Positions 1,734-44,816 of a stretch of 64,000 nt of DNA are shown in pieces; the stretch's first letter is position 1; each line of letters starts with the position of its first letter. The notes under the pieces were generated by a model. It saw only the letters and a program-made list of their open reading frames with translations. It was not told the DNA's origin and ran no database searches. Origin of the DNA: Ureibacillus acetophenoni (GTDB lineage Bacteria > Bacillota > Bacilli > Bacillales_A > Planococcaceae); assembly GCF_900220965.1 (NCBI RefSeq), contig NZ_OBQC01000001.1:310001-374000 (forward strand). Reading direction: 5' to 3'. The position numbers and the translations under genes were made by a program.

Positions 1734-2042
1734 CGCAAATAAATGGATGTAATTCGCAAATGGTTACCGTAATTTCGCAAGTATTCAATGCGATATCGCA
1801 AATAAAACCATGGAAATCGCAAGTAAATATTAATTTGCAAATAGGCACTTGAAAATTGCAAATAACCAGTGAGAATTCGCAAATAAAATGCGGATATTCG
1901 CAAGTAAATGTGAGTAATACGCAAATTAACATTAATTCGCAAATAGCACCCGGAGTATCGCAAGTAACCAGCGAAAAATCGCAAATAAATCACCAAAAAT
2001 CGCAAATATCCCCGGTAAATTCACAATCAGCTAAAAAAACCG
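1734..2042. repeat. Repeat array 1: 21-bp CGCAA monomers in 102-bp superunits
   Basis: Fifteen monomers begin with CGCAA, or once-changed TGCAA/CACAA, at 1734, 1755, 1776, 1797, 1818, 1836, 1857, 1878, 1899, 1920, 1938, 1959, 1980, 2001 and 2022. Every step is 21 bp except two 18-bp steps (1818-1836 and 1920-1938), giving exactly three five-monomer superunits of 102 bp. The first half of each monomer is conserved (CGCAARTAAA) and the second half is diverged. The array fills the gap between the terminators of two convergent genes. Apparent open frames across it on both strands come from the period being a multiple of three and have no ribosome sites. Confidence 0.92.
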
Positions 2043-2052
2043 CCTAAATTTA

Positions 2053-2087
2053 ACAAAAAAACGGCCGACTCAATTAAGAGTCAGCCA
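2053..2087 (-). terminator. Terminator of the CotY/CotZ gene
   Basis: On the minus strand GGCTGACTC / GAGTCGGCC with a six-base loop, followed by G and seven T. It forms the right border of repeat array 1. Confidence 0.8.
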
Positions 2088-2104
2088 TTAACTTTCTACA
2101 TACA

Positions 2105-2668
2105 CTAGTTACAAATGTTTAAGTCACAATCTGCAACACATTGAATCGCTGTGAAGTCATTTAAATCCACTGTGCAACAAGTATCAGTTTTCTTGAATTT
2201 TCTAATTTCAGAGAATGCTACTGGATTAATATTATCATTATCTAGGAACACTACACCGTCTTCTGCTGCATCAGCTGGATCTATTGGTGACATTTCTTCA
2301 TCAAGTTCATCACCAAGTGGAACTCTAATTGGATCTAGAGCGCGTAATGTAGCACAGCAATCACCAAATACATCTTCAACACGGAAGAAGCAAGTATGGA
2401 AGAAGCTTTGACCTCTTCTAGCCATTACTTTAAACGGTTTTCCTAATTCATCCAATAACATGAAAACTCGTGTATCGGCATTTCTTGAACGATGTGAAAG
2501 TCCTCCAAGTGGTTCAAGGTAACAACTTGTTCCACAAGTATCACAATCATGACGAACTGCCGCATTTTGAATTTTTAAGATGGATTTCACAACTTCACAA
2601 ATACACCCACGGTCATCATGTTTATCACCGTGAAAAGAACTACTATCATGGTTTCTACCACAACCCAT
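2105..2668 (-). CDS. Cysteine-rich spore coat protein, CotY/CotZ (ExsY) family
   Basis: A 187-residue protein of the spore outer coat/crust or exosporium basal layer. Family features: the N-terminal MGCG start, a CICEVVKSILKIQNA-like helix, the CDTCGTSCYLEPLGG cysteine cluster, a FHTCFFRVEDVFGDCCATLRAL core, and C-terminal CC/C pairs. These proteins self-assemble into disulfide-linked sheets. An acidic insert (about residues 125-150) precedes the last cysteine cluster. The ATG has a strong GGGGTGA site upstream. It converges with the CotO-like gene across array 1. Whether it is the CotY, CotZ or ExsY orthologue cannot be settled from the sequence alone. Confidence 0.92.
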   Translation of the reverse strand: MGCGRNHDSSSFHGDKHDDRGCICEVVKSILKIQNAAVRHDCDTCGTSCYLEPLGGLSHRSRNADTRVFMLLDELGKPFKVMARRGQSFFHTCFFRVEDVFGDCCATLRALDPIRVPLGDELDEEMSPIDPADAAEDGVVFLDNDNINPVAFSEIRKFKKTDTCCTVDLNDFTAIQCVADCDLNICN

Positions 2669-2796
2669 TTTAAATTCACCCCTTATTATTTAACTTCAAT
2701 CTACAATATGTCGAAACGAGTTATATAACCGGGCGTTTAACCATAGGCGCTAAATTTTGGCCTAAATTTTTCATTAAACACACAAAAATCTAATCA

Positions 2797-2825
2797 GAAT
2801 AGATTCACTGAAAAAGTAAATAATA
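2797..2825 (+). promoter_or_regulatory. Candidate sigma-G promoter of the spoVA operon
   Basis: GAATA at 2797-2801, a 17-bp spacer, then AATAATA at 2819-2825. This resembles the forespore sigma-G pattern (GNATR, about 17-18 bp, CATNNTA) with one mismatch in the -10. Its place before a spoVA operon fits, since spoVA operons are sigma-G dependent in B. subtilis. Confidence 0.45.
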
Positions 2826-2846
2826 AATAAAAAAGGGGGTTGAATT

Positions 2847-3251
2847 TTGAAGAAAATAGTATTTTTCTTTTTCGTCCCTTTATTACTAGCAGGCTGTTCA
2901 GGCAACGATAAAACGATTGAGGTGTATGACGTTTTAGATGATGCTGAAAAAAGAGTAGAGGTACGTGAAATTCTTGATAGTAATGAGGATATTTATAGTG
3001 GTACAGCCATATTTGTGAATAATGATTTGCTTGTAGCCGTTCAAGCAAAACCGTGGCTTGACTATAAAAAAGGGAAAATTGAGAAAGAGTTAACAAATCA
3101 GTTTGAAGAACAATTTTCACAATTTGATGTGTTAGTATCGGCAGATTATAAGCTTTATTGGGAAGCAAATAAGCTTTTAAATGAAGAAGATTCAAAAAAA
3201 GTGGAAGATCAGGTAAAGAAATTGAAAGAATTAGAAAAGGAGGAAACGTAA
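2847..3251 (+). CDS. Spore lipoprotein, YhcN/YlaJ-like
   Basis: A 134-residue lipoprotein starting at TTG 2847, with AAGGGGG seven bases upstream. A short hydrophobic signal peptide ends in the lipobox LAGC, so the mature protein is probably lipid-anchored at a membrane. The body has the small alpha/beta pattern of sporulation YhcN/YlaJ lipoproteins (a strand segment GTAIFVNNDLLVAVQ, then a charged C-terminal helix). The TAA overlaps the ATG of spoVAC, so the two are translationally coupled. YhcN-like lipoproteins accompany spoVA genes in other Bacillales and are linked to the inner spore membrane and germination. Lipoprotein nature is clear; the family name is moderately certain. Confidence 0.75.
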   Translation: MKKIVFFFFVPLLLAGCSGNDKTIEVYDVLDDAEKRVEVREILDSNEDIYSGTAIFVNNDLLVAVQAKPWLDYKKGKIEKELTNQFEEQFSQFDVLVSADYKLYWEANKLLNEEDSKKVEDQVKKLKELEKEET

Positions 3252-3706
3252 TGCAACAAGAACAATATAAAAATCTTGAACAACAAGTTACTCCTCCTAC
3301 ACCTTATTTGAAAAATGCTCTAAAAGCGTTTTTTGTAGGCGGCATTATTTGCACAATTGGACATGCCATCACATACTTCTATATAATCTTTTTTGATTTT
3401 ACGGAAAATACGGTTGGTAATCCTACTGTGTCAACAATGATATTTTTATCAATGCTTCTAACGGGTTTTGGCTTATATACAAAATTAGGACAGTTTGCAG
3501 GTGCAGGAAGTGCAGTTCCTGTTACAGGGTTTGGTAATGCGGTCATATCAGCGGCTATTGAACATCGTACAGAGGGTATTGTTTTAGGGGTTGGAGGAAA
3601 CATCTTTAAATTAGCAGGTTCTGTTATTTTATTTGGTGTAGCTTCTGCATTCTTTATTTCATTGATTAAATTAATTCTCGTAACAATAGGTGTTGTTCAA
3701 TGGTAA
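3251..3706 (+). CDS. spoVAC: Stage V sporulation protein AC
   Basis: A 151-residue membrane protein with about four hydrophobic segments. It contains the SpoVAC/AE signature region GGIICTIGHAIT near the start and AGAGSAVPVTGFGNA in the middle. In B. subtilis SpoVAC is part of the inner-membrane channel that moves Ca-dipicolinate in sporulation and out at germination, and behaves as a mechanosensitive component. The start has GGAGG before it and overlaps the lipoprotein stop by one base; its stop overlaps the spoVAD start, so the four genes form a tight operon. Confidence 0.95.
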   Translation: MQQEQYKNLEQQVTPPTPYLKNALKAFFVGGIICTIGHAITYFYIIFFDFTENTVGNPTVSTMIFLSMLLTGFGLYTKLGQFAGAGSAVPVTGFGNAVISAAIEHRTEGIVLGVGGNIFKLAGSVILFGVASAFFISLIKLILVTIGVVQW

Positions 3707-4695
3707 TCGTATTTCAATCAAAACCTTCTATTTTAGCTAACGCCGTTGTAGCCGGACCTTTAGAAAAGAAAAGTGTCTTTTACTCCTATTTTGACTCAGT
3801 TGTTGAGGATGAAAGATGGAATCAAAAGACAAATGAACAAGGTCATTCAAAAATGATCATAGAAGCATGTGAAATCATTACGAAAAAAGCAAATATTAAT
3901 AACTTAGATGTGGATTACTTTTTAAGTGGAGATTTAGTCAATCAAATGACACCGTCTAATTTTGCAGCTAGAGAATTAGCCATTTCTTTTATTGGATTAT
4001 TTTCTGCATGTGCAACATCGGTGTCTTCTGTCATCATTTCAAGTTTACTCACTGAATTGGGAGCATCCCAATATGCGATTGCTGGAGCTGCAAGTCAACA
4101 TAATGCTATTGAAAGACAATTCCGCTATCCGATTGAATATGGTGGAAAAAAACCAGCAACTGCACAATGGACAGCAACAGCAGCTGGATATGTATTAGTA
4201 GGAAAGCATAATCCAGAATACCCTTCTGTTGTAGCTGCAACTGTAGGAAAAGTTGTTGATTATGGAGATACGAATCCTTTCCATATGGGTGGTGCGATGG
4301 CTCCAGCAGCCTTTGATACGATTAAGGCCCATTTGAAAAAACGAAATCAAAAATTCCAAGACTACGATTTAATAATGACAGGAGATTTAGGGAAAGTAGG
4401 ATTAAAAATACTGCAAACGATGTTTGCCCAGTCAGGTATTAAACCAGAAGAGTTACAATTACTAAGAGATGCCGGAGCGGAGTTTTATGGTGAAGATGAA
4501 GCCTTTTTAGCTGGTGCTAGCGGCGCAGGTTGTTCTGCAGCTGTATATTTTAGCTACATTATACAACAATTAAAAACTGGACGGTTTAAGCGTGTTTTAT
4601 TATGTGCGACTGGTGCGCTACTTTCACCACTTTCTTTTCAACAGGGTGAATCAATTCCATGTACAGCACATGCAATTGAACTAACGATGGAGTGA
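3700..4695 (+). CDS. spoVAD: Stage V sporulation protein AD
   Basis: A 331-residue protein of the SpoVAD family, which has a thiolase-like fold and binds dipicolinic acid at the inner spore membrane. Family segments include an early [20 protein letters not shown] region, [14 protein letters not shown] FSACATS, the [11 protein letters not shown] stretch, and C-terminal GAGCSAAV. Length is close to the B. subtilis protein (338). The ATG lies inside the end of spoVAC (7-bp overlap) and the TGA overlaps the spoVAEb start. Together with dapH/dapL downstream in the window, it fits DAP/dipicolinate production and storage in spores. Confidence 0.96.
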
Positions 4696-5072
4696 TGCAA
4701 AACATGATATTCATTGATTTTCTATTAGCGTTTGTTATTGGTGGAATCATTTGTTTAATCGGTCAATTAATTATGGATTATGGAAAATTGACACCCGGGC
4801 ATACTCTATCGATTTTAGTTGTAGCAGGTGCGGTTCTTTCAGGTCTTGGTTTGTATCAACCACTGATCGATTTAGCAGGTGGTGGGGCGACAATTCCAAT
4901 TACATCATTTGGACATTCTCTAACTCAAGGGGCATTTGCGGAGGCAGAAAAGCATGGTTGGGTTGGTGTTTTAACAGGAATGTTTGAAGTGACAAGTTCT
5001 GGAATTAGCGCAGCAATTGTATTTGGCTTTATAGCGGCATTTATTTTTAAACCAAAAGGTAAACCAAACTAG
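4695..5072 (+). CDS. spoVAE: Stage V sporulation protein AE (SpoVAEb type)
   Basis: A 125-residue membrane protein homologous to SpoVAC over [11 protein letters not shown] and the [19 protein letters not shown] motif. It is the last member of the compact spoVA operon. Three starts are possible in frame (GTG 4692, ATG 4695, ATG 4704); ATG 4695 overlaps the spoVAD stop as TGATG and is used here. The operon lacks spoVAA, spoVAB, a separate spoVAEa and spoVAF in this window, which is the reduced AC-AD-AEb arrangement seen in several Bacillales and Clostridia. Confidence 0.93.
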
Positions 5073-5136
5073 ACGAATACCCCAACTTTTACTTTTACCC
5101 TTGCATAGGATACAAAGTGAAAGGAGGGGATTTTTT

Positions 5137-5295
5137 ATGTGGAATAATAATTTTTGTGGTTGCAATCAAGTAAGCCCTGCATATGATATGGGAAATGACT
5201 ACTGTGATCATGGCAGCAATAACAACTCAATGTTTGTATTAATCGTAGTATTATTCATTTTATTAATCATTGTTGGTGCTGTTGTTTGCTGGTAG
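5137..5295 (+). CDS. YjcZ-family small sporulation membrane protein
   Basis: A 52-residue protein. The ATG at 5137 follows AAAGGAGGGG at a good distance; the longer frame from 5101 has no ribosome site. The C-terminal FVLIVVLFILLIIVGA helix is the diagnostic YjcZ/YczN-type segment, preceded by a Cys/Asn-rich head (NNNFCGCNQ, DYCDHGSNN). Such mini-proteins are made in the late sporangium; their role is unknown. It sits between spoVAE and spoVIF. Confidence 0.88.
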   Translation: MWNNNFCGCNQVSPAYDMGNDYCDHGSNNNSMFVLIVVLFILLIIVGAVVCW

Positions 5296-5317
5296 GTTGT
5301 AGGTAAGGAGGGAGAAC

Positions 5318-5566
5318 ATGCAAAACCCTTTTTTTAAACAAATTGAAAACAAAACAGGCGTAGGTATGGAAGATATTTTCGAACTAGCTAATGCAATTCA
5401 ACATGCAGATTTTAAAAACGAAAAACAAGTTCGAAAGATTGTACAACGCGTAAGTAAATTAGCTAAAAAACCTATTACGAGAGATTTGGAAGATAAAATT
5501 GTTCAATCAATCGTAAAAGATGGTAACTCGTTAGATTTTAGCAAAATTGAAAAGATGATGAGGTAG
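5318..5566 (+). CDS. spoVIF: Stage VI sporulation protein F
   Basis: An 82-residue protein matching SpoVIF (YjcC): N-terminal NPFFKQIENKTGV, DIFELANAIQHADFKNE and QVRKIVQRVSKLAKKPI. In B. subtilis SpoVIF is a late mother-cell factor that works with GerE to activate coat genes. GGAGGGAG lies before the ATG. A strong terminator follows at 5573. The coat, spoVA, yjcZ and spoVIF genes form a late-sporulation island. Confidence 0.93.
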   Translation: MQNPFFKQIENKTGVGMEDIFELANAIQHADFKNEKQVRKIVQRVSKLAKKPITRDLEDKIVQSIVKDGNSLDFSKIEKMMR

Positions 5567-5572
5567 TAGGTA

Positions 5573-5598
5573 GGGTGCGTCTTGTTTGAGACGCACCC
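5573..5598 (+). terminator. Hairpin after spoVIF
   Basis: Ten-bp perfect stem GGGTGCGTCT / AGACGCACCC with a six-base loop. No T-run follows; instead TTGCGCC follows, as it does after a hairpin at 53820. Confidence 0.6.
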
Positions 5599-5666
5599 GT
5601 TGCGCCATAGTTGATGGCATCGTGATGTGGCGACTTCATACAAAAGCATTGACTATGTAAAAAGGA

Positions 5667-5703
5667 GGGGGTGTTTTGAAAGTTTAACTTTCAACACATC
5701 CCC
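5667..5703 (-). terminator. Terminator of the YjcF-like gene
   Basis: Interrupted stem GGGG..TGTT..GAAAGT / ACTTTC..CACA..CCCC. It lies directly downstream of the minus-strand gene. Confidence 0.6.
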
Positions 5704-5706
5704 TTT

Positions 5707-6135
5707 TTAAATCGCTTTTTCCATGGATCGATGAGGGATACCCGCATCTAAAAATTCAGGTGAAGAAACGATATAATTTAACTTTTCATAAAAAGGTACA
5801 GCATAAGATTGGGCATTTAACTTTAATTTCGAATACCCTTGTTCAATTGCAAATTTTTCAATTGCCTGCATTATAAGTATTCCAATTCTTTTTCCACGAT
5901 ACTCCGGCAATACACATACTCTTTCGACTTTACCTACTTTTGGCTCGTACTCTCTAATACGTGCAGCTGCGATTACTTTATCGCTATCCAAAACAATAAA
6001 ATGATTTGCTGATTTGTCATGTTCATCTAATTCTAAATGCTCTGGAACACCTTGTTCCTCTACGAAAACCTTTTTTCTAATTTGAAAAGCAAGTTCTAAT
6101 TGCTCTTCAGTTTTTACATTTTTCACTATAAACAC
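5707..6135 (-). CDS. yjcF: GNAT-family N-acetyltransferase, YjcF-like
   Basis: A 142-residue single-domain acetyltransferase of the ElaA/YjcF type. Visible: N-terminal FQIRKKVFVEEQGVPEHLELDEHD, a strand VIAAARIR, and the acetyl-CoA loop VLPEYRGKRIGILIMQAIEKFA (R/Q-x-x-G-x-G/A pattern, with a GKRIG variant). The C-terminal PFYEKLNYI segment is typical. The substrate is unknown. It ends the yjcH-yjcG-yjcF cluster on the minus strand, the same order as in B. subtilis, with only five bases between it and yjcG. Confidence 0.9.
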   Translation of the reverse strand: MFIVKNVKTEEQLELAFQIRKKVFVEEQGVPEHLELDEHDKSANHFIVLDSDKVIAAARIREYEPKVGKVERVCVLPEYRGKRIGILIMQAIEKFAIEQGYSKLKLNAQSYAVPFYEKLNYIVSSPEFLDAGIPHRSMEKAI

Positions 6136-6140
6136 TATGC

Positions 6141-6656
6141 TTATTCATCTCCAGTTAACTTATATGTTTCATAAGTTGTCCATGAACCATCCTCTAGTTG
6201 ATAGAGTAGATGGATTCGATCGATTGTATCTTTCTCATTCACGCCAACCATTCGTAATTGTCCGAAAATATCATCATGTTCTGCTGCACTAATATCTTGA
6301 GCAATGGTGATGTGAGGAACAAAGACATGTCTAGGTTTACCGATATTTATTTCAGCGTGTAATTCATTGTGTAGGTTTGATAATTGTTCAGTAGGTTCAA
6401 TTTTGAAATAAATAACATTCGTGTTTGGAAAGAACGAGCTGACGCGAGAGGCATGAATATTTAACGGTGCGTGCTTTTTAGCTATAGTCGCTAACTTTTC
6501 AGTAATGACCTTAATATCTGCTTCATTGACCTCAAACCCTTCTTTTAAAGTAATATGAGGTGTTACTTTTGAGTAGTGTGAGTCATATCGTTTACGATAC
6601 GTATTTGCAAGATCTTGTAATTTTTTTGAAGGAAAAGCGACAATCCCAAATTTCAT
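6141..6656 (-). CDS. yjcG: 2'-5' RNA ligase/2H phosphoesterase family protein YjcG
   Basis: A 171-residue protein with two H-x-T/S motifs of the 2H phosphoesterase superfamily: HITLKEGF near residue 34 and HITIAQD near residue 115. Length and order agree with B. subtilis YjcG. The biochemical substrate is not established; family members act on 2',3'-cyclic or 2'-5' phosphodiester bonds. An AGGAGG site lies upstream of the start (read as CCTCCT on the plus strand). Confidence 0.93.
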   Translation of the reverse strand: MKFGIVAFPSKKLQDLANTYRKRYDSHYSKVTPHITLKEGFEVNEADIKVITEKLATIAKKHAPLNIHASRVSSFFPNTNVIYFKIEPTEQLSNLHNELHAEINIGKPRHVFVPHITIAQDISAAEHDDIFGQLRMVGVNEKDTIDRIHLLYQLEDGSWTTYETYKLTGDE

Positions 6657-6734
6657 ACATAATACCTCCTTATTTTAATATTCTTAACTTTTTAAGTATA
6701 ACAAAATTCAGACAAGTTAAGAAACTCATAACCC

Positions 6735-7457
6735 CTAGTATGGAAAATTTTTAATCAAAGCTCTTCTTAAGTCTGGTTTCCAATATTTCCAAGTATGATT
6801 ACCATCAAATTCTTCATAAAATGTGTTATAGCCTTTTTCTTTTAATAGCTGATGTAATTGTCTGTTAGGTGTTAAAAAATCTTTTATAGTTTTATCCATC
6901 GTAAGTACTTTATTCTCTTCTTTACCAATGATGTGATAAATTGAAATGTGTCCATTATTTTGTGTATTCTGAACAATATCTAATACATGTTCATCGACAT
7001 ATGGGGATTGCAAAATGGCCTTACTAAAAATATTTGGATATTTCAATGCTGCTAGTAACGAGACAGTTGCTGCCATAGAATCTCCAATAAGTCCGCGTGT
7101 TGACCCCATTTGTAAAGTCGAATATTCTCTGTCTAAATATGGAACTAGTTCATGAGCTAAGAAATGTAAATAGGCTTCATGCTTATTGCCTGTAGGAATG
7201 TATTTCTCTTTTCGGTCATGTATATTTTTATATGGTATTCCTACGATAATTATGTTTTCAATTTCATATTCTTCAATTAATTCATCGGCTAATTTTGTTA
7301 TCCCACCTAGTTGAAAGTAATCTTTTCCATCAGATGCAAGTAAAATGTTATATTTATTTAAAGGAGTATAATTTGCTGGAACATAAACTAATAAATCGAT
7401 TTCTTCTTCTAAAGATTGGCTAAAAAATGCTACGTCTTGAATCGTGCCCTTTTCCAC
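6735..7457 (-). CDS. yjcH: Alpha/beta hydrolase, esterase D-like YjcH
   Basis: A 240-residue putative esterase. Visible: strand YNILLASDGKDYF, nucleophile region TRGLIGDSMAATVSLLAALKYP (G-x-S-x-A/G elbow at GDSMA), and a C-terminal FDGNHTWKYW carrying the likely catalytic His. The family is esterase_D-like (Fes/enterobactin-esterase fold). First gene of the yjcHGF group, with AGGAGG upstream. Substrate unknown. Confidence 0.9.
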   Translation of the reverse strand: MEKGTIQDVAFFSQSLEEEIDLLVYVPANYTPLNKYNILLASDGKDYFQLGGITKLADELIEEYEIENIIIVGIPYKNIHDRKEKYIPTGNKHEAYLHFLAHELVPYLDREYSTLQMGSTRGLIGDSMAATVSLLAALKYPNIFSKAILQSPYVDEHVLDIVQNTQNNGHISIYHIIGKEENKVLTMDKTIKDFLTPNRQLHQLLKEKGYNTFYEEFDGNHTWKYWKPDLRRALIKNFPY

Positions 7458-7578
7458 AATTAAGACCTCCTAACATATGTAATATTTTTGATTGTATCAT
7501 AATGAATTGTACCCGTGTACTTTAAGCTTAAACAATTAATTCGGTAATAAAAATAAAGACATAGAGAGGGTTTTTTGT

Positions 7579-8794: not shown

Positions 8795-8800
8795 TAAACA

Positions 8801-11303: not shown

Positions 11304-11485
11304 GTTAATATAAAAATAATTAAAAAGTAATATCGAAGTAACCATATTTTTGATATGATTAATTTCATTCAGTACTATTTTTTCACTTTTAAAAAATCAA
11401 AAAATGTAGATTAGCGTTAAAAGATTTGAATACATAATTTGAATGGTGAATGTAACTAACCAATGATTGAATGGAGGATTTTAGG

Positions 11486-12958
11486 ATGTATACAGAGGAA
11501 TTGTTAAGTGTAATCCCTTTAAAAAAGGTTATTGGGCAGTTACCTAGTAATGTTAAAGATATTTCAATCGATTCTAGAAGTGTGCAACCAAAAAGTATTT
11601 TTATATGTATAAAAGGCTATACAGTTGACGGACATGATTACGCACAAAAGGCTGTAGATTCAGGGGCTATTGTTATTGTAACAGAAAGGGAACTTGAGTT
11701 AGAAGGTCAAGTTGCCCAAGTGATTGTCGCAGATACGAATCGTGCGCTAGGATTATTAGCTGCGAAATTTTTTGACAACCCGTCAAAAGATTTAACGTTA
11801 ATTGGTGTAACGGGTACGAATGGTAAAACAAGTGTCTCAGGTATCATCCATCATATGTTGTTAGGTATGGGTGAAAAATCTGCACTAACTGGTACAATTG
11901 GTTTTAATTTAAATGGTGTTTTATATGAATCGGCAAATACAACTAGCGATGCATTAAGTACTCAACAAATGATCTTCCGTGCAAAGATGGAAGGGTGCAG
12001 AGCTATGGTGATGGAAGTATCTTCTCACGGGTTAGCGTTAGGTCGATTAGCTGGTGTAGATTATGATATTGCTGTATTTACAAATTTAACGCATGACCAT
12101 TTAGATTTTCATGGAACGATGGAAGAGTACGGAAATGCAAAAGGATTGCTCTTCTCACAAATGGGTCAAGACTTAACGAAGAATAAATATGTTGTCCTAA
12201 ATGCGGATGATCCATGGTCAGAAAAATATGCAAAACTAACTCCTTATCCAGTTTGGACTTACGGGCTTAAAAATTCAGCGGACTTTACAGCTGAAAATTG
12301 CAACTACGATGATGGTTTAACAACTTTTGATATGATTACGCCGGAAGGGAAATTTCCTGTTACCATGAAACTTTTAGGTGAGTTTAATGTATACAATATA
12401 TTAGCAGCAACTGCCGTGTTTTATGGTCGAGGATTCCCACTTGAAGCCATTTTAGAACAAATTGAAGATCTAAATCCAATTAGAGGTAGAATGGAACTAG
12501 TAAAAACAGATTTACCGATTCAACTGTTTATAGACTATGCACATACTCCGGATGCAATTGAAAAAGCAATCAATGCAGCGCTACCATATAAAAAGCCTGA
12601 AAATAAATTAATTTTCTTAATTGGAACAGGTGGAAATCGAGATAAGTCGAAACGACCGACAATGGCAGAGAAGGCCTCACGCGCGGATTACGTTATTTTG
12701 ACAACAGATGATCCTCGTTATGAAGACTACGATAGTATTACAGGCGATTTGGCAAAAGGAATGCTACATGAAAACTATGCATGTATCGGCGACCGAGCAG
12801 AAGCTGTTCGCCACGCAGTTTCGGTAGCAGAACCAGGAGATATTATTATCTTTGCAGGAAAAGGACATGAAGATTATCAAATTATAGGTAATACCAAATA
12901 TCCACATAGTGACGCACAAATTGCGATTGAAGTAGGACAATTGAAATTTGTAAAATAA
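11486..12958 (+). CDS. murE: UDP-MurNAc-tripeptide synthetase MurE (third-residue ligase)
   Basis: Adds the third amino acid (meso-DAP or L-Lys) to UDP-MurNAc-L-Ala-D-Glu in the cytoplasm. ATG 11486 has GGAGG eight bases upstream; a longer frame starts at 11471 but would overlap that site. Product about 490 residues. Visible: DSRSVQP substrate loop, ATP loop GVTGTNGKTS, HDHLDFHGTMEEY, DYAHTPDAIE, and the specificity motif DDPR (residues 408-411) in place of the DNPR of DAP-adding enzymes. HGTMEEYGNAKGLLFSQMGQDL resembles the Lys-adding staphylococcal enzyme. The gene stands alone, away from any dcw cluster. Enzyme class is firm; the amino acid added is open. Confidence 0.92.
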   Translation: MYTEELLSVIPLKKVIGQLPSNVKDISIDSRSVQPKSIFICIKGYTVDGHDYAQKAVDSGAIVIVTERELELEGQVAQVIVADTNRALGLLAAKFFDNPSKDLTLIGVTGTNGKTSVSGIIHHMLLGMGEKSALTGTIGFNLNGVLYESANTTSDALSTQQMIFRAKMEGCRAMVMEVSSHGLALGRLAGVDYDIAVFTNLTHDHLDFHGTMEEYGNAKGLLFSQMGQDLTKNKYVVLNADDPWSEKYAKLTPYPVWTYGLKNSADFTAENCNYDDGLTTFDMITPEGKFPVTMKLLGEFNVYNILAATAVFYGRGFPLEAILEQIEDLNPIRGRMELVKTDLPIQLFIDYAHTPDAIEKAINAALPYKKPENKLIFLIGTGGNRDKSKRPTMAEKASRADYVILTTDDPRYEDYDSITGDLAKGMLHENYACIGDRAEAVRHAVSVAEPGDIIIFAGKGHEDYQIIGNTKYPHSDAQIAIEVGQLKFVK

Positions 12959-12972: not shown

Positions 12973-12999
12973 GCCCTCTCTAAGTTTGAGAGGGTTTTT
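12973..12999 (+). terminator. murE terminator
   Basis: CCCTCTC / GAGAGGG with a seven-base loop, then TTTTTG. It forms the left border of repeat array 2. Confidence 0.85.
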
Positions 13000-13037: not shown

Positions 13038-13710
13038 AGGTACATTTTTGGGGATTTACGAGCGACTTCGGCTGAGTTATGAGCAAGTTTCTCTAGTTTA
13101 AGAGCAACTTTTTGGTACTTATGATCAACTTCGTTCTCGATCTATTTTAATGAGCAACTTTAGCATGTTTACGAGCAACTTCGGTTGATTTATGAGCAAG
13201 TTTTCTCGGTTTACGAGCAACTTTTTGGGACTTATGATCAACTTCGATCTCGAGCTATTTTAATGAGCAACTTTAGCATGTTTACGAGCGACTTCGGCTG
13301 AGTTTTGAGCAAGTTTCTCTGGTTTACGAGCAACTTTTTTGGACTTATGAGCAACTCAGATCTCGATCTATTTTAATGAGCAACTTTAACATGTTTACGA
13401 GCCACTTCGGTTGATTTATGAGCAAGTTTTCTCGGTTTACGAGCAACTTTTTGGGACTTATGATCAACTCCGGCCCCAATCTTGTTTAATGAGCAACTTT
13501 AGCATGTTTATGAGCAACTTCAGTTGATTTATGAGCAAGTTTTCTCGGTTTACGAGCAACTTTTTGGGACTTATGATCAACTCCGGCCCCAATCTTGTTT
13601 AATGAGCAACTTTAGCATGTTTATGAGCAACTTCAACAGGTCTATGAGCAAGTTTCTCCCAATTACGAGCAACACTTTGGTGCTTACGATCAACTCCAGA
13701 CCAGATTAAA
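13038..13710. repeat. Repeat array 2: 21-bp GAGCAACTT monomers in 113-bp superunits
   Basis: Monomers starting GAGC (or GATC in one position) lie at 13060, 13081, 13102, 13123, then 13152, 13173, 13194, 13215, 13236, and so on to 13688. Steps are 21 bp four times, then 29 bp, repeating exactly: superunit starts at 13152, 13265, 13378, 13491 and 13604, 113 bp apart. The monomer consensus is GAGCAACTT plus a variable part ending TTTAY; the fourth step holds a conserved GATCAACT variant. A first superunit (from about 13038) is decayed. The 113-bp period is not a multiple of three, which argues against coding. It lies between the facing terminators of murE and the NERD gene. Confidence 0.93.
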
Positions 13711-13727: not shown

Positions 13728-13755
13728 ACCACCTTTTGAAAATTCAAAAGGTGGT
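13728..13755 (-). terminator. Terminator of the NERD-domain gene
   Basis: Fourteen-bp near-perfect palindrome AACCACCTTTTGAA / TTCAAAAGGTGGTT with a T-run on the minus strand. It forms the right border of array 2. Confidence 0.85.
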
Positions 13756-13760
13756 TCATC

Positions 13761-14639
13761 TTACCATTTCCACTTATAGTAAGTGCTCTTATAACTAAAA
13801 AATTCTAAAAGATTCTCATGTTTTAATAATCGTTTAGCTAAATGCCGATCAGTAATCATTAAATAGTCTCGGCATTCTGCATTTGTTATTTGGTCTTTGT
13901 TGAAAATAAACCATTCTTGAAGTGTAGGTATGTGAGAATCTTTGTCACTATGGTTACAAGCAGGACATTGCCATTTACCATAAAGTCTAGCCATGCCTAT
14001 CCTGCTACATTTCAGACAACGGACCCCATTTACAATTTGTACTGTATCGAGATTCCAACTTTTCCTTAAAGGGTATTGCTCAAAACGATTTTTCTTACAC
14101 TCAATTTGAATTATTTTGCTTAATTTATCTATGTCACCTTTCGATAAGCATTGTTCTCTATCGTTATATTCATTCCATTTTTGATGAAGATAATAAAATA
14201 TGGATTTAGGAAAAAGGGAAGTGACTCTCTCAGGGCCTTTTAATATTAACGGGGGAGTTGAACTTGTAAATACAAAAGCACCTACAACAGGAATTTTTAA
14301 CCCTTGCTGTTCCAGCCACCAATTAAATAATGCTACATTTCTTTCGACTTGAATTTCAGGACTTTCTAAAACACTAGTTTCACCATTTTCTTTTACACGG
14401 ACAAGTCTTTCAGGATTTTTCTCAAAGTATAGTTTTCCACCAATATTTTTACTCTCAAGAATAAAAATAAGTTTAGGGGTTAAAATCATACAATCGATTT
14501 GAAACTTACCTCCCGCATCTAGGGAAACATCCTTAACTACTTTGTAAGGAAAATGATTACGGTAGCTTTCTAACATTCTAAATAAGCGTTGCTCACCAAT
14601 TATCCCGGATTTTAACTTAGAAAGGTTTGCTTCAATCAA
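13761..14639 (-). CDS. NERD nuclease-related domain protein with C-terminal zinc ribbon
   Basis: A 292-residue cytoplasmic protein. The N-terminal NERD domain (about residues 10-125) shows the PD-(D/E)xK-like pattern GEQRLFRMLES, QIDCMILTPKLIFILESKN, with the D...E-x-K residues kept. A middle helical region follows, then a zinc-binding pair CLKC...CPAC (about residues 209-230) and a C-terminal helical tail. NERD proteins are predicted nucleases of unknown role. The start is uncertain: TTG 14639 has only a weak purine-rich stretch before it and the frame stays open upstream without an ATG. Stand-alone gene. Confidence 0.82.
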   Translation of the reverse strand: MIEANLSKLKSGIIGEQRLFRMLESYRNHFPYKVVKDVSLDAGGKFQIDCMILTPKLIFILESKNIGGKLYFEKNPERLVRVKENGETSVLESPEIQVERNVALFNWWLEQQGLKIPVVGAFVFTSSTPPLILKGPERVTSLFPKSIFYYLHQKWNEYNDREQCLSKGDIDKLSKIIQIECKKNRFEQYPLRKSWNLDTVQIVNGVRCLKCSRIGMARLYGKWQCPACNHSDKDSHIPTLQEWFIFNKDQITNAECRDYLMITDRHLAKRLLKHENLLEFFSYKSTYYKWKW

Positions 14640-38577: not shown

Positions 38578-38583
38578 AGAAAA

Positions 38584-38616
38584 GATGAAGAAAACAATTA
38601 TAGTTTTCTTCACCTT
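38584..38616. terminator. Terminator shared by dapL and the convergent dehydrogenase gene
   Basis: GAAGAAAAC / GTTTTCTTC, then a T-run. Confidence 0.75.
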
Positions 38617-38620
38617 TTTA

Positions 38621-39388
38621 TTATTGAACGGTATAGCCTCCATCTAATACAACCGCTTGACCAGTCATTCCTTTTGCATCCTCACTAGCGATGAATAGAA
38701 CTAAATTTGAGACTTCGGATACATCAAGCAAACGTTTTTGTGGCACTAGAGGATAAATTACTTCTTCTAATACGCTCTCTAATGGCACATTCCGAGTTTT
38801 TGCTAAATCAGTTAACTGATTACGAACTAAAGGTGTATCGACGTAGCCAGGACAAATTGCATTAACTGTTATTCCGTCTGTAGCTGTTTCAAGTGCAGCT
38901 ACTTTTGTTAAACCAATAACGCCATGTTTTGCAGAGTTATAAGCAGCTTTACCAGCAAATCCTACTAAGCCATTGATGGACGCTATATTAATAATTCGTC
39001 CAAATTTTTGTTTTCTCATAATTGGCAATACATGTTTCGTAGTAACAAATGGTGCGGTTAACATGATCTTAATTAGTAATTCAAAGCGCTCTGTTGGAAA
39101 GTCTTCAATCATAGCGACATGTTGCATACCAGCGTTATTAATCAAAATATCAATTCGCCCAAAATGGTCAACTGCCTTTGTGATCGATTCGATAATTTCT
39201 TCTTCACTTGTTACATCACACGAAAGTCCAATTGCTTCCTCTCCAAATGAAGCAGCTGCTTCTTTTACCTTTTCTTCATTTTTATCTGTTAGAACAATTT
39301 TAGCACCTTTTGAATGAAAGGCCTTTGCAATTTCAAAGCCAATCCCCTGTGCAGAACCTGTAATAAATACAACTTTGTTTTCAACCAC
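38621..39388 (-). CDS. 3-hydroxybutyrate dehydrogenase
   Basis: A 255-residue classical SDR that oxidises D-3-hydroxybutyrate to acetoacetate with NAD+. Visible: TGSAQGIGFEIA cofactor loop, NNAGMQHVAMIEDFP (His of the BDH substrate pocket), INIASINGLVG (catalytic Ser), YNSAKHG (Y-x-x-x-K), and the GYVDTPLVRNQ lid. The GTG start at 39388 has AAGGGGG upstream. It lies downstream of a GntP permease on the same strand, so the two probably form an uptake-and-use pair. Confidence 0.92.
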   Translation of the reverse strand: MVENKVVFITGSAQGIGFEIAKAFHSKGAKIVLTDKNEEKVKEAAASFGEEAIGLSCDVTSEEEIIESITKAVDHFGRIDILINNAGMQHVAMIEDFPTERFELLIKIMLTAPFVTTKHVLPIMRKQKFGRIINIASINGLVGFAGKAAYNSAKHGVIGLTKVAALETATDGITVNAICPGYVDTPLVRNQLTDLAKTRNVPLESVLEEVIYPLVPQKRLLDVSEVSNLVLFIASEDAKGMTGQAVVLDGGYTVQ

Positions 39389-39439
39389 CCCGATATAACC
39401 CCCTAAGTGAAGAGTCGTTTAAGCGGCTCTTAAAATAGA

Positions 39440-40777
39440 TTATAGACCTAAACCTAATGAGAATAAGACAATTGCAATAATTACACCGATTATTGGAGTA
39501 ACAACTGTTGTTGCTGCTACAGACCAATATGCATCTTTATGTTTTTCACCACAGACTGATTGAATCGTTGTAACAACATATCCGTTATGTGGTAAGGAGT
39601 CTAAAGCACCTGAAGAAATTGCAACGACCCTGTGAAGGGCTTCTGTGTTTACCCCTGCTTCTACATATCCAGGTGCAACGAGTGGCAATGCGATTAATTG
39701 ACCTCCTGATGCGGATCCTGTCATACCTGCAATAACTGACACAGCTACAGCTGCACCAATTAAAGGTGAGCCAGGAATACTTGTCATTGCATCAACAGCA
39801 ACATTAAATGCAGGTACTGCTTTTGCAACCCCACCAAACCCAACTACAGCAGCCGTATTACCAATGGCGATAATTGCACCAATTGTCCCTTGTGATACTG
39901 CTTCCCAAGGATCTTTAAAGTATTTCCAACTAACGATGAATGTCGCAATAATACCACCTAGTAAAGCAAGAATAAGTGCTGATTGAGCTAAATCATTATG
40001 GAATATAAACGAAATAATTAATACAACAGCTAACGGAATAAATGATAGCATTGGATTCGGTAAAGTTCGTGACGAATCGAATGTTGGATCTGTTTTTCGA
40101 GCAACGAATCGCTCTCCTTTATTAACCGCTTTTTGAATTAAACGTTTTAACCACCAATAACCAAATACAGCCATAAATACGGCAACAATGATACTAACTT
40201 CCCAACCAGCATAAGGAGTTGTCCCTAAATATTCTATAGGAATCCAGTTTTGAATTTCTGGAGAACCCGCCGATGTCATCGTAAAAGTTACAGACCCTAA
40301 TGCTAATGTCGCTGGAATAAAACGACGTGGTAAATCAGCTTGTTTAAATAATGAAATTGCCATTGGATAAACCGAGAAAGCAACGACGAATAATGAAACG
40401 CCACCGTATGTTAAGACAGCACAGGCAACGACAATTGCGATAACCGCATATTTCATCCCTAATTTATCGACAATGAATTTTGCAACGGCATCAGCAGCAC
40501 CACTATCTTCCATTACTTTACCAAAAACTGCTCCAAGTAGGAACATTAAATACCAGGACATGATAAAACCTGTAAATCCGGTCATATAACTCGTTACAAA
40601 GTTCGCTGCACCTTCTTCAGCGAGTTGTGGAAATAATGGCAATCCAGATAAAATAGCTACGAATAAGGCAGAAATCGGACCAACTATAATAATATTTATC
40701 CCTTTCATAGTTAGCCAAATTAATAAGACAAGACCACCTATGAGTCCGACCATACTCAAGACAATACTAGTATCCAT
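39440..40777 (-). CDS. GntP-family permease, probably for 3-hydroxybutyrate
   Basis: A 445-residue membrane protein with about twelve helices of the GntP (gluconate:H+) superfamily. Visible: GGVSLFVVAFSVYPMA, MTGSASGGQLIALPLVAP and the C-terminal SGALDSLPHNGYVVTTIQSVC. In B. subtilis the similar YxjC sits by 3-hydroxybutyrate/ketone-body genes. The gene order permease-dehydrogenase and the sigma-54 activator upstream suggest induction by 3-hydroxybutyrate or a related acid. Substrate inferred from context. Confidence 0.88.
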   Translation of the reverse strand: MDTSIVLSMVGLIGGLVLLIWLTMKGINIIIVGPISALFVAILSGLPLFPQLAEEGAANFVTSYMTGFTGFIMSWYLMFLLGAVFGKVMEDSGAADAVAKFIVDKLGMKYAVIAIVVACAVLTYGGVSLFVVAFSVYPMAISLFKQADLPRRFIPATLALGSVTFTMTSAGSPEIQNWIPIEYLGTTPYAGWEVSIIVAVFMAVFGYWWLKRLIQKAVNKGERFVARKTDPTFDSSRTLPNPMLSFIPLAVVLIISFIFHNDLAQSALILALLGGIIATFIVSWKYFKDPWEAVSQGTIGAIIAIGNTAAVVGFGGVAKAVPAFNVAVDAMTSIPGSPLIGAAVAVSVIAGMTGSASGGQLIALPLVAPGYVEAGVNTEALHRVVAISSGALDSLPHNGYVVTTIQSVCGEKHKDAYWSVAATTVVTPIIGVIIAIVLFSLGLGL

Positions 40778-41089
40778 TAGTAAACCCCCTTTTAAATTGA
40801 TATGGTCAACCGTAAATTAATGTTCACATGTAATTTCATTAAAAACTGCTTGTCTAACTCTGCTGGTTATCAACTCCTTTAAGTACTATCGAAAAACGTT
40901 TACAAATGCCCTCAACTTCAAAGGTAATTCACTATATGCACTCATATGTTTCAAAAATGTGAACTAGGTTTTGTTAGAGAAATCCAGGAATCTGGACAAT
41001 CTATACAAAGAAAGCTGAAAACAGGCTAAAGAATAAGGAAAACAAAAATCCAACAATTCGGAATGCTGTCCGATTTGTTGGATTTTAGG
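40778..41089. other. Regulatory gap between activator and permease genes
   Basis: About 310 bp with no gene. It holds the activator terminator (41045-41086) and a possible cre site (40891-40904, GAAAAACGTTTACA, two mismatches). I searched by eye for a -24/-12 sigma-54 promoter on the minus strand and found no good GG-N10-GC match. Confidence 0.5.
41045..41086 (-). terminator. Terminator of the sigma-54 activator gene
   Basis: AAATCCAACAA-CGGA / TCCG-TTGTTGGATTT, a long interrupted stem. Confidence 0.85.
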
Positions 41090-42427
41090 TCATAAGTTGT
41101 GTTTTTTTATTTTTTCATAAAGAGTGGAACGGCTAATACCAAGCTGTTGTGCAATTTTATTTTTATCTTTTTCAACTAGTAGATATTCTTTAATCACTTG
41201 ACCTTCAACGTGATTTAATATTTCTTCCAATGTACCGTTTGAACGACTGAAATTAGAAGACTTGCGACGTAGATGAAATGGTAAGATGTCTTCTGTAATT
41301 ACATCCCCATCTGCAAGATGCACAATTGCTTCAATTATATCTTGTAGTTCACGAACATTTCCTGGCCAGTCATAGTTTTGGAGTGTCCAGTAAACTTTAC
41401 GATGAACTTTAATGTTACGTCTACCGGCTTCTACGCAAAATTTGTTAATAAATGTTTGAATAAGCTCTGGTAAATCTTCAATTCTTTCACGCAGGGGAGG
41501 AACTTGTAAAGTGATAGATTGTATTCGGTAAAACAAATCCTCCCGAAATTGCTTTGTTTTTACTAATTCTGTGAGAGGGGAATTGGAACTTACAATGACT
41601 CTTGTATTAATTGGAACTTCTTCGTCTGTTTCTACGGGTTGGATTGTCCCATCTTGTATCATTTTTAATAACTTTGCTTGGATGGTTAATGGTAGTTCGC
41701 TAATTTCTTGAATATAAATTGTCCCGCCATCGGCGAGGGAAACTCTTCCTTTTTTTAAAGTGTTTCCGTCCCACTTTCCAAACAATTCTATTTCCAATAA
41801 CTCTTTTGGAATCGATGAGCAATCAATCGTCACAAAAGGTTTTTCAAAACGATCCGATAATCGATGAATACTTCTAGCACACAATTCTTTACCAGAACCA
41901 ATTTCACCTTCGATTAATACTGGTAGCTTTGTTGGAGCAATAATGGAAATGGTTTCTTTAATTTTACGGATTGCATTAGAAGACCCAATTAAATTAGGGA
42001 AACGTTCCTGTTGATTCATAGATGTATTCATATTTCTTTCTATTTTTTCTAATGTTTTTTGTACGTGGGAATTCAATTTTTTCCAATCATTGACGTCTCT
42101 AAACATTACACTACCGAAAGCACCAACTATTTCACCATCAACATAAATAGGAATACGATTTGGTAACATATAATTACCTTTTATATAATGTGGTGCCGCA
42201 ATATGAGCAACTCCGTGTTGCATGACAAGATGCATTTCGGAATTTTCAATGACTTCAGTGACATGTTTTCCGATTACTTCTTCGCGGTTCACTTCTAGGA
42301 ATTTACAGTATTCTTCATTGATATAAATAATTTTGGCGTCTTTGTCTACCACTACAAACCATGAAAAGGCGGTTTCTAATATTTGCTCGATTACTTCCGG
42401 TGATAAGTTATTTATTAAGCTTTTCAA
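41090..42427 (-). CDS. Sigma-54-dependent transcriptional activator (PAS-AAA-Fis)
   Basis: A 445-residue enhancer-binding protein. PAS domain at about residues 10-120 (SWFVVVDKDAKIIYINEEYCKFL), AAA+ domain at about 140-370 with Walker A GEIGSGKEL (variant of GExGTGKE), Walker B/arginine region and DLFYRI; Fis-type HTH at the end (IAQQLGISRSTLYEKIKKH). The usual sigma-54 contact loop GAFTGA is replaced: the segment reads ELFGKWDGNTLKKGRVSLADGG, shortened and without GAFTGA. This questions whether it really acts on sigma-54. It lies upstream of the permease-dehydrogenase pair. Confidence 0.9.
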   Translation of the reverse strand: MKSLINNLSPEVIEQILETAFSWFVVVDKDAKIIYINEEYCKFLEVNREEVIGKHVTEVIENSEMHLVMQHGVAHIAAPHYIKGNYMLPNRIPIYVDGEIVGAFGSVMFRDVNDWKKLNSHVQKTLEKIERNMNTSMNQQERFPNLIGSSNAIRKIKETISIIAPTKLPVLIEGEIGSGKELCARSIHRLSDRFEKPFVTIDCSSIPKELLEIELFGKWDGNTLKKGRVSLADGGTIYIQEISELPLTIQAKLLKMIQDGTIQPVETDEEVPINTRVIVSSNSPLTELVKTKQFREDLFYRIQSITLQVPPLRERIEDLPELIQTFINKFCVEAGRRNIKVHRKVYWTLQNYDWPGNVRELQDIIEAIVHLADGDVITEDILPFHLRRKSSNFSRSNGTLEEILNHVEGQVIKEYLLVEKDKNKIAQQLGISRSTLYEKIKKHNL

Positions 42428-42501
42428 TATATCACCTCAAATCTAGTATTTTTATATATTTATGATGATGAAGGCGTGTTTAGTAGATTTTAAAGTATAA
42501 A

Positions 42502-42544
42502 AAAGAAGCAATCTTGAGTTTGTGTAATTCAAGATTGCTTCTTT
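42502..42544 (-). terminator. Terminator of the MFS pump gene
   Basis: AAGAAGCAATCTTGA / TCAAGATTGCTTCTT, 15-bp stem with flanking A/T runs. Confidence 0.85.
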
Positions 42545-42548
42545 ATAT

Positions 42549-43751
42549 TTATTTGACTTCTGCGTGTATAATAGTAGGGGCGTTTTTCCGATTCCATCCA
42601 TAAGCTAAAACAAAACAGCCAATTAATATAATTGCGCCGAAGATGAATGGTGATGGTAAACTCCACTCAAGAAGAACTCCAGCTAATGCAGGACCAATCA
42701 TATTCCCTAAACTCATATAAGCATTGTTCATACCAGCAGCATATCCTTGGTCCCGATCAGCCATTTTAGATATTAACGTATTAACTGCAGGACGGATAAA
42801 TATCGTTGCAATTTGGAATAGCGTCGCTACCGTTAAAATGACAAAATAACCGTTTACAAAAATCATTAAGAACATCGTAATAGCTGCGGCAATTAAATTA
42901 ATTAAAATGACCTTCATTTCTCCATATTTTTTAAATAATATATCGATAATAAACATTTGTAAGATGACACCAACAAAACCACCTACGGTAATAACGATTG
43001 CGATATCAGCTGGAGTATAGCTGAATTTAAGTTTTAAAAACATGGATAACGTAGACTGGAAATTAGCAATACCAAAACTAAACGTAAAGACGACAATTAG
43101 TAAAATAAAGTAAGGAGTTTTAACTGATTTTACGAGTTGTTGCAGTAGATTTTCTCGAGGTGGTCGATTTGCCACTGCATGTTCCTGTTGTGTTTGCACA
43201 TTTGGCAATATAATCCAGGATAGAAGGGCTGTTAACAATGCGACGACACCTGAAGCGAAGAATGGAAAGTGTAAATCGATTTCTGCTAAAAAACCACCGA
43301 TTCCAGGACCTATCATAAAACCTAATGAAATAGCAGCCCCTAATTGCCCCATACCTTTACCACGTTCCTCAGGTGTTGTAATATCGGCAACAAAGGCCAT
43401 CGTTGGAGGCATGATAAATGCAGCGCCGACACCGGTTAAGAAACGCGCGATAAATAATATCCAAACTTGATTGGCTAACCCAAAAATAATTTGTGAGATA
43501 CCGTAAATGATAAGACCAATAATGATAAATTTTTTCCTACCATACCGGTCAGAAAAGTCGCCTGCAATTGGCGAAAAAAGAAATTGGGCTAATGCAAAAC
43601 TAGCAATTAAAAACCCGAGCACCTGGCCGCCTACACCAAATATCTCGAGATACGAAGGTAATACGGGAATGATAATACCAATTCCGCCCATTGTAATGAA
43701 CATGTTAAACATTAAAATAAGTAAGGCAAGTTTTTTTGTTTTTTGAGTCAT
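42549..43751 (-). CDS. MFS multidrug efflux transporter, Bmr/NorA-like
   Basis: A 400-residue transporter with about twelve helices. Motif A GDFSDRYGRKKFI, motif C GIGGFLAE in GFMIGPGIGGFLA (drug:H+ antiporter signature GxxxGPxxGG), and a linker (NVQTQQEHAVANRPPREN) between the halves. This pattern marks DHA1-type multidrug exporters such as Bmr, Blt and NorA. Substrates unknown. No adjacent MerR regulator. Array 3 lies upstream of its start. Confidence 0.87.
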   Translation of the reverse strand: MTQKTKKLALLILMFNMFITMGGIGIIIPVLPSYLEIFGVGGQVLGFLIASFALAQFLFSPIAGDFSDRYGRKKFIIIGLIIYGISQIIFGLANQVWILFIARFLTGVGAAFIMPPTMAFVADITTPEERGKGMGQLGAAISLGFMIGPGIGGFLAEIDLHFPFFASGVVALLTALLSWIILPNVQTQQEHAVANRPPRENLLQQLVKSVKTPYFILLIVVFTFSFGIANFQSTLSMFLKLKFSYTPADIAIVITVGGFVGVILQMFIIDILFKKYGEMKVILINLIAAAITMFLMIFVNGYFVILTVATLFQIATIFIRPAVNTLISKMADRDQGYAAGMNNAYMSLGNMIGPALAGVLLEWSLPSPFIFGAIILIGCFVLAYGWNRKNAPTIIHAEVK

Positions 43752-43997
43752 ACTTTTCCACCCACCCTTTTAGGTCATCCAAATAAACGTCTATAAATGT
43801 AATACTCACTAGCTTAACATAAAATGACAGTGAGCACTACATAAATGCAATTTAATAGAAACAGATAAAAGGATTAGTAGACTGGTTGACTATGAGGTAG
43901 TTGGAAGGAGGAATAACGCTTAGGTGTGGAGGATTTAGCGGGGGAGTGTGGATTCACAAATGGCCCCTTGGAAAGCTCAAATAGGTGCATGAAAATT

Positions 43998-44816
43998 CGC
44001 AAATAAGCATGTGAACTTCGCAAGTAGATGTGTGGAAATCGCAAATAAACATCGCGAAATCGCAAGTAAACTTGTAATCGCAAATAGACCTATTAAATTC
44101 GCAAATAAACAAGTGAAATTCGCAATTAAACAAGTGAAATCCGCAAGTAAACGTGTGGAAATCGCAAATAAACATCGCGATATCGCAAGTAAACTTGTAT
44201 TCGCAAATGGATCCCTGAAACTCGCAAATAAGTCTACGAAATCCGCAAGTAAATGTGAGGAAATCGCAATTAAACATCGCGATATCGCAAGTAAACTTGG
44301 AATCGCAAAAGGACCTTCGAAACTCGCAAATAGGCTTGTGAAATCCGCAAGTAAATGTGAGGAAATCGCAAATAAACATCGCGATATCGCAAGTAAACTT
44401 GTATTCGCAAATGGACCCTTGAAACTCGCAAATAGGTTTGTGAAATCCGCAAGTAAATGTGAGGAAATCGCAAATAAACATCGCGATATCGCAAGTAAAC
44501 TTGTATTCGCAAATGGAACCTTGAAACTCGCAAATAGGTTTGTGAAATCCGCAAGTAAATGTGAGGAAATCGCAAATAAACATCGCGATATCGCAAGTAA
44601 ACTTTGAATCGCAAATGGAACCTTGAAACTCGCAAATAAGTCTACGAAATTCGCAAGTAAATCTGGTGAAATCGCAAATAAAGCTCATGATATCGCAAGT
44701 AAATTAGTAATCGCAAATAGACCCCCAGAAATCGCAAATAAACCCCCAGAAATCGCAAATAAACGCCACGATTTCGCAAATAACCCCCATAAATTCGCAA
44801 GAAAAACCTCCACCCA
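43998..44816. repeat. Repeat array 3: 40 CGCAA monomers in 102-bp superunits
   Basis: Forty monomers begin CGCAA between 43998 and 44796. All spacings are exactly 21 or 18 bp. From 44184 to 44712 every fifth step is 18, giving a 102-bp superunit; equivalent monomers at 44163, 44265, 44367, 44469, 44571 and 44673 are 102 bp apart. The 18-bp monomer is always the one following the ATCGCGATAT monomer. Inner superunits are nearly identical (recent unequal exchange), outer ones diverged. Monomer core CGCAARTAAA is the same as array 1. It lies beyond the potD terminator. Long open frames on both strands (43954-44688 minus, 44011-44607 plus) are period artefacts. Confidence 0.95.

Follow-up and report, generated by a model that had tools for sequence, protein, structure and literature searches.

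Direct repeats set about two helical turns apart are a feature of plasmid iterons (e.g. those of RK2, P1 and R6K), which often number about five, are bound cooperatively by one protein and are located at the plasmid origin beside the rep gene. Another repeat system, the STAR element, occurs in Staphylococcus, a genus of the same order as Ureibacillus acetophenoni. In the available part of their description, STAR elements have a 14-bp GC-rich core, T(G/A/T)TGTTG(G/T)GGCCC(C/A), with spacers of at least 40 bp and repeats of about 50 nt (PMC3532100). The TAACTGA direct repeats are, in the portion of the account available, heptamers that in the best-studied genome lie for the most part immediately ahead of start codons, and a translational role was proposed for them (PMC4679880). 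Here we describe intergenic arrays of direct repeats in U. acetophenoni (assembly GCF_900220965.1), beginning with three arrays in a window of 64,000 nucleotides, the whole stretch of DNA analysed (contig NZ_OBQC01000001.1, positions 310,001 to 374,000).

Three arrays in the window

A first-pass annotation made from the DNA alone described three intergenic arrays of 21-bp monomers in groups of five, with an off-length step of 18 bp in two of them and 29 bp in the third. This arrangement is confirmed and the intergenic placement is supported. Array A1 (1734..2042, + strand) holds 15 CGCAARTAAA cores, five to a block, and its three blocks are joined by 18-bp steps (step order 21,21,21,21 / 18 / 21,21,21,21 / 18 / 21,21,21,21). 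Array A3 (43955..44816, + strand) contains 42 CGCAARTAAA-like cores, decayed ones included, in superunits of four 21-bp steps plus one of 18 bp (102 bp), with a single six-member block of 123 bp and two ragged ends. In array A2 (13060..13708, + strand) the cores are GAGCAACTT and each block of five is joined to the next by a 29-bp step, giving a superunit of four 21-bp steps plus one of 29 bp (113 bp); its opening block has four members only. The end points first given for A1 stand, but A3 begins 43 bp earlier once two decayed cores are counted. Tandem Repeats Finder reported periods of 21, 102, 113 and 123 in the window, with a top score of 913. We refer to the family with core CGCAARTAAA as F1 and to that with core GAGCAACTT as F2. 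In the genome, the dyad CGCAARTAAA-N11-CGCAARTAAA (up to three mismatches) has 573 matches against 11 for the reversed control, and the dyad GAGCAACTT-N12-GAGCAACTT has 131 against 8; that the repeat structure of A1 to A3 exceeds chance is confirmed.

Each monomer consists of a conserved box of 14-15 bp and a nearly random spacer of 6-7 bp. The F1 monomer combines RAAWT-CGCAARTARR with 6 bp of nearly random sequence; across 469 21-mers, seven fixed core columns are 97-100% conserved (1.78-2.00 bits), three columns are purine-biased (0.73-1.10 bits) and spacer columns 11-16 carry 0.07-0.28 bits. The F2 monomer (79 monomers) is TTAY-GAGCRACTTY plus a 7-bp free stretch. GCAA had been thought to be all that the families share; it is indeed common to both, but so is the layout of box and spacer.

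Spacers are locus-specific and the architecture is not. Among consensus superunits of 12 loci, spacer likeness was 0.317 at the same block position versus 0.308 at different positions (p 0.23). Core variants, in contrast, are position-specific between loci (0 of 500 shuffles), the R position being A in early members of the block and G in the 18-bp member, so that evidence for a common ancestry of superunits across loci is divided. Amplification, which the first-pass annotation had offered as one shared mechanism, holds within loci, where superunits are local duplications; since spacers are not common to different loci, it does not by itself account for the conserved cores.

Array numbers and step lengths in the genome

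The genome contains at least 22 F1 and at least 8 F2 arrays, counts that are lower bounds; 18 F1 arrays were detected in the fetched stretches and four more loci lie at C21:150k, C25:114k, C25:218k and C25:493k. The proposal of two sequence families with one architecture is borne out by these arrays. Superunits of 102, 81 and 113 bp are present at other loci, so that the refuting condition set in the first-pass annotation, the lack of a 102/113-bp period elsewhere in the genome, does not hold. Among the 623 steps of the 18 F1 arrays, 469 are of 21 bp, 110 of 18 bp and 44 of other lengths, 12 of the latter being 39 or 42 bp, i.e. two steps with one core missed. The eight F2 arrays have 79 steps of 21 bp, 8 of 29 or 30 bp, 6 of 50 bp (21+29) and four others. 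In the 15 F1 arrays with a complete block, the commonest block is four 21-bp steps plus one of 18 bp in 12 cases and three 21-bp steps plus one of 18 bp in the other three (C25:85k, 97k and 290k). Some arrays lie at, or no more than 1.5 kb from, contig ends (C21, C26, C35) and may break the assembly and be under-counted.

Other arrays occur in the same genome. A short 21-bp array with a further core, TTTTTCTAATAAC, lies at L064:2930-3060, apparently between genes. A third class, absent from the window, has 51- or 52-bp units with paired TGTC/GACA words as inverted repeats and locus-specific interiors; 13 segments of it, some overlapping, were seen in 380 kb not picked for arrays (L055, L059, L060, L061, L063, L064, L065, L069). 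Its 51-bp unit is half of 102 bp, or five turns of 10.2 bp, and is similar in length to the STAR unit.

Helical register

In long arrays of both families, the off-length step brings the cores back into helical register, at 10.2-10.3 bp/turn. The step averages 20.435 bp (sd 0.2, range 19.89-20.86) over thirty F1-type arrays of at least ten cores, which come from several genera. The earlier equation of 21 bp with two turns, placing the cores on one side of the DNA, holds for the basic step, but the off-length steps of long arrays bring the F1 mean to about 20.4 bp, or about 10.2 bp/turn. By phase coherence the best pitch is 10.18 bp/turn for F1 (n=18) and 10.28 for F2 (n=8) in this genome, 10.28 in genome G005 (n=5) and 10.18 in G074 (n=6), with lower coherence at 10.5 in each case. 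In other, named genera, seven of eight arrays with at least eight cores fit 10.02-10.32. Taken singly, six of the eight F2 arrays fit 10.22-10.36 and the remaining two 10.38 and 10.50.

This register is reached by several recipes: 102 bp is 10 turns of 10.20, 81 bp is 8 of 10.13 and 113 bp is 11 of 10.27, and Metasolibacillus uses mixtures of 20- and 21-bp steps. F2 matters most here because its 22.6 bp per step differs from 20.4 yet closes on 11 turns. Shuffling the step order cuts mean coherence from 0.82 to 0.59 (14 arrays). A/T-rich dinucleotides in the arrays show periodicity peaks at 10.20 (F1) and 10.30 (F2), which carry limited weight because they are largely a consequence of the cores themselves. 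A pitch of about 10.2 bp/turn is that of DNA tracked along a curved surface, such as that of a nucleosome.

Genomic position and strand

The arrays lie beside the 3' ends of genes. With a simple open reading frame (ORF) caller, 26 arrays of this genome were placed between co-directional genes in 17 cases, convergent genes in 6 and divergent genes in 1, with 2 at contig ends; background gaps longer than 100 bp are co-directional, convergent and divergent in 197, 33 and 63 cases. Of 30 gene ends that face an array, 25 have a terminator ahead of it. In other genera, with 12 arrays close to locus ends and 3 within ORFs left out, 56 of 59 arrays adjoin a gene 3' end and 1 of the 54 with both flanks known is divergent.

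Strand and local GC skew agree for 20 of the 22 F1 arrays (exceptions C25:104k and C25:108k), and strand and prevailing contig skew for 21 of them (exception C25:114k). Scored by fetched stretch, 19 arrays agree and the three others lie in L037, where the skew is near zero; with L037 split in halves, one agrees and two disagree. Agreement holds where both neighbouring genes oppose (C12:106k, C25:194k, C25:353k), and is found elsewhere in 5 of 5 arrays of G005, 9 of 10 of G074 and 59 of 70 named 8-kb loci. F2 is on the opposite strand in seven of eight arrays, A2 being the exception. Strand polarity is weak in two other genomes with sparse skew samples: G140, where 7 of 9 loci agree when scored by arm, and G021, where 7 of 10 agree and one was unscorable. 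The named loci at which both neighbours oppose the array divide into three that agree with the skew and three that disagree. Outside arrays the F1 core is not enriched (2 seen versus 3.8 expected), leaving a dispersed polar word unsupported for F1.

In the window, A1 has directly before it the intrinsic terminator of gene 1247-1657 (1666..1708, + strand) and directly behind it that of the spore-coat CotZ-like gene 2105-2668 (2060..2089, - strand). The terminator hairpin of the Mur ligase gene 11471-12958 (12974..12994, + strand) lies before A2 and that of the NERD-domain gene 13761-14639 (13728..13757, - strand) behind it, while the hairpin of the solute-binding-protein gene 44878-45954 (44832..44846, - strand) stands beside A3. 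The flanking genes tested match Pfam entries for spore coat, Mur ligase, NERD, MFS and solute-binding protein, except for one gene, which lacks a match.

Related genomes

The unit of about five cores is not peculiar to U. acetophenoni. Searching with the exact F1 dyad yielded at least 80 named loci of 111 stretches; after eight non-Bacillales loci were dropped, 77 runs were kept, 72 of them uncut by a locus end. Among the matches listed, these 72 runs have five cores in 27 cases, four in 14 and six in 10 (51 of 72 with four to six), a count that is not selection-free, seeds and scoring having been derived from F1. Planococcus, Neobacillus, Fictibacillus and other Bacillales carry units of a similar kind. 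In G140, with core GCAAACAAA and strict matching, seven of nine arrays have five or six cores, one has four and one nine. G140 probably belongs to Planococcus: its genus-mate G141 carries an array string identical to that of Planococcus halocryophilus L071. Array strings shared in identical form likewise point to Ureibacillus aquaedulcis for G004 and to U. chungkukjangi for G014.

Of 261 genomes of the family, 108 contain five GCAA words at 21-bp spacing, some of these matches resembling unrelated or coding repeats, and the F1 dyad (at most one mismatch) is present in 11 of 61 genomes, this one among them. Some family genomes match the reversed control strongly, i.e. they carry other cores or repeats of the same period. 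Several genomes of genus g3 have strong reversed-control matches (AACG at 21 bp), suggesting further core types or coding repeats.

Turnover between relatives was visible at individual sites. In eight relatives read at the potD site, the 21-bp array of the congener G006 is built on a different core (TTTTGGCGGA, L313:10745-10889, the same array as in L259), G010 has a short decayed F1 array and six have no visible array. G010 has about four decayed F1 cores, judged by eye, at the C25:104k site, where this genome has 63, and no array was seen at its sites matching C25:108k and 194k. Its F1 array at L315:8344-8514 lies in the gap orthologous to C25:114k, with the strand reversed relative to the conserved neighbours. 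Judging from these few sites, the short units may be the older form and the long arrays of recent origin. In the same genus, loci L296-L305 of G021 hold long TATCCGAGCAAG arrays at 21 bp with long frames open, often on both strands (LSEQ-like), and coding is possible there.

A model for the arrays

The data presented above incline us, by a small measure, to read the arrays as DNA-level platforms for a cooperative, sequence-specific putative DNA-binding protein; of the shared mechanisms named in the first-pass annotation, protein binding fits best. The fixed box with a free spacer, the strict step length and the register reached by differing recipes point to cooperative binding of a protein to DNA, as do the mostly untranscribed positions in this genome and the scarcity of single F1 cores. 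Blocks of five recurring in several related genera point to a DNA-binding protein and not to chance. Such a protein would contact one core per about two helical turns on one DNA face, with a working unit of about five contacts spanning about 100 bp, or ten turns. The off-length step (18 bp, or 29 bp as 18 plus about one turn) would re-phase the next block in the F1 and F2 arrays of this genome, and long arrays would thereby hold register at about 10.2 bp/turn. The protein may wrap or bend the DNA, wrapping being suggested by the pitch alone, and might serve a structural role, as a boundary or in nucleoid organisation, in untranscribed gaps.

A number of results weigh against this model. The F2 word GAGCAACTT was seen 12 times outside arrays versus 3.7 expected (440 kb, first-order Markov), always singly (window position 50743 and 11 places in L054-L069); some of these words may be codons, and single words fit cooperative binding less neatly. 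Terminators before arrays in other genera (47 of 74) are mildly above control genes (55 of 114). By autocorrelation, an array is present at the murE site in 1 of 24 genomes, this one only, and at the potD site in 3 of 23, so that arrays come and go. No binding protein was found, and no co-occurrence search for one was made. With regard to register, one of the eight longer named-genus arrays (L097) fits 10.62. G021, of the same genus and with core TATCCGAGCAAG, runs up to 16 uncorrected 21-bp steps with a pitch of 10.46. The 32 named-genus runs with fewer than eight cores are mostly plain 21 bp, with a best pitch of 10.46, and say little about pitch; the pooled named-genus pitch of 10.28 is a mixture of short and long runs. 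G140 units are also mostly plain 21 bp. G021 and the short named-genus runs rule out a universal 10.2-bp register. The step-order test is moreover not independent, because local duplication accounts for part of the regularity of the 18-bp steps.

Other explanations were weighed against the same evidence. A neutral or selfish bacterial satellite, in which direct repeats grow and shrink by slippage and unequal recombination in tolerant gaps with neither protein nor function, is possible but unlikely. The superunits inside one locus are near-identical local duplications, as such a satellite would produce, presence differs between close relatives (as at C25:104k), and the arrays that this genome and G010 carry in the C25:114k gap are on opposite strands, indicating that strand is not inherited. 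Slippage should, however, homogenise spacers too, and here a box of 14-15 bp persists next to 6-7 bp that vary almost at random from monomer to monomer and from locus to locus; step lengths are kept despite diverged spacers, and runs of about five cores recur in genera in which few long arrays were seen. To coding repeats of seven residues we give hardly any credence. Both 21 and 18 are divisible by three, and A3 is overlain by ORFs of 244 and 198 amino acids, but the two A3 ORFs tested match no Pfam family above cut-off and steps of 17, 19, 20 and 22 bp are also found in arrays; A2 has 29-bp steps and no ORF across it longer than 61 amino acids, which refutes coding for that array.

It is improbable that the arrays are polar elements linked to replication or segregation and read one way by a fork- or translocase-related protein. 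The agreement of F1 strand with local or contig skew, even against both neighbouring genes, its recurrence in G005, G074 and the named loci, and the opposite strand of most F2 arrays argue for such a role; yet gene direction also shapes local skew, most named-locus arrays run with their neighbours (29 same, 6 opposite), and the even split where both neighbours oppose, the weak polarity of G140 and G021, a G010 array that opposes its local skew (C11:60k) and the lack of scattered single F1 cores all speak against it. An RNA-level element, with arrays as transcribed 3' regions or regulatory RNAs, appears very unlikely. It would explain why arrays lie behind genes, in other genera mostly on the same strand (29 of 35 co-directional), and one A3 superunit folds better than shuffles (z -2.98 on the + strand, -1.83 on the - strand). 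The A1 and A2 superunits, however, are hardly more stably folded than shuffles (z -1.53 and -0.61), most facing gene ends of this genome have a terminator ahead of the array, F1 orientation departs from that of its neighbours at 3 of 10 sites with co-directional flanks, and the window has 0 Rfam matches at gathering score.

A broader version of the protein-binding platform can be drawn, which we regard as doubtful: a Bacillales-wide, chromatin-like positioning element, with a lineage-specific word every two turns or so, five-site units of ten turns, a putative protein core around which DNA would run at a nucleosome-like surface pitch of about 10.2 bp, and 18- or 29-bp "leap" steps that would hold long arrays in register, marking untranscribed gaps. 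A unit of about five sites recurs in several genera with diverged cores, and long arrays reach a similar register by different step recipes. If true, protein binding predicts a hitherto undescribed protein that recognises a different word from one lineage to the next, and five cores on one face within about 100 bp would be the exact DNA bait for that protein.

Comparison with known systems

Among the matches listed, no description of these arrays was found in the open-licence literature, and the motif-word matches were unrelated by title; we know of no description of satellite-like DNA with higher-order structure in bacteria. Mobile-element cargo was rejected, as phage, plasmid and viral collections contained next to no matches: with the low-complexity filter on, A2 and A3 had no match in the plasmid collection and A3 none in the phage collection, and 2.9 million viral contigs held the exact F1 triple in 3 stretches and the F2 dyad in 9. 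CRISPR arrays have repeats of about 23-47 bp and unique spacers of similar length; here the box is 14-15 bp, the spacer 6-7 bp and the superunits are repeated. BIME/REP elements are intergenic near gene 3' ends, a location alike to that of the arrays, but REP units are palindromic and the array cores, by reading, are not self-complementary. KOPS/SRS, Chi and DNA uptake words are short, scattered single sites, some of them strand-biased relative to replication; the strand bias is alike, but F1 lacks their scattered-site enrichment and the F2 word has the excess given above.

As far as the available part of their account extends, the TAACTGA repeats resemble the arrays in forming many intergenic direct-repeat sets per genome and in having a proposed binding protein, and differ in being heptamer repeats, unlike the 21-bp-step arrays here (PMC4679880). 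The direct-repeat geometry of iterons, about two turns, is found in the arrays, where binding is putative; they differ from iterons in lying at 30 or more loci of the genome, beside tested genes whose Pfam names are not rep. STAR elements share with the arrays, on the evidence of the partial description, an intergenic location, a short conserved direct repeat, locus-specific spacers and variable copy number, as well as positions that vary between species and a function unassigned in both (PMC3532100). The window has 0 matches to the STAR 14-bp consensus with up to two mismatches, and array spacers are 6-7 bp where those of STAR are at least 40 bp. Relative to what is available on STAR, the arrays of U. 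acetophenoni are set apart by their 21-bp steps, their different core and their blocks of five cores with phase-restoring steps.

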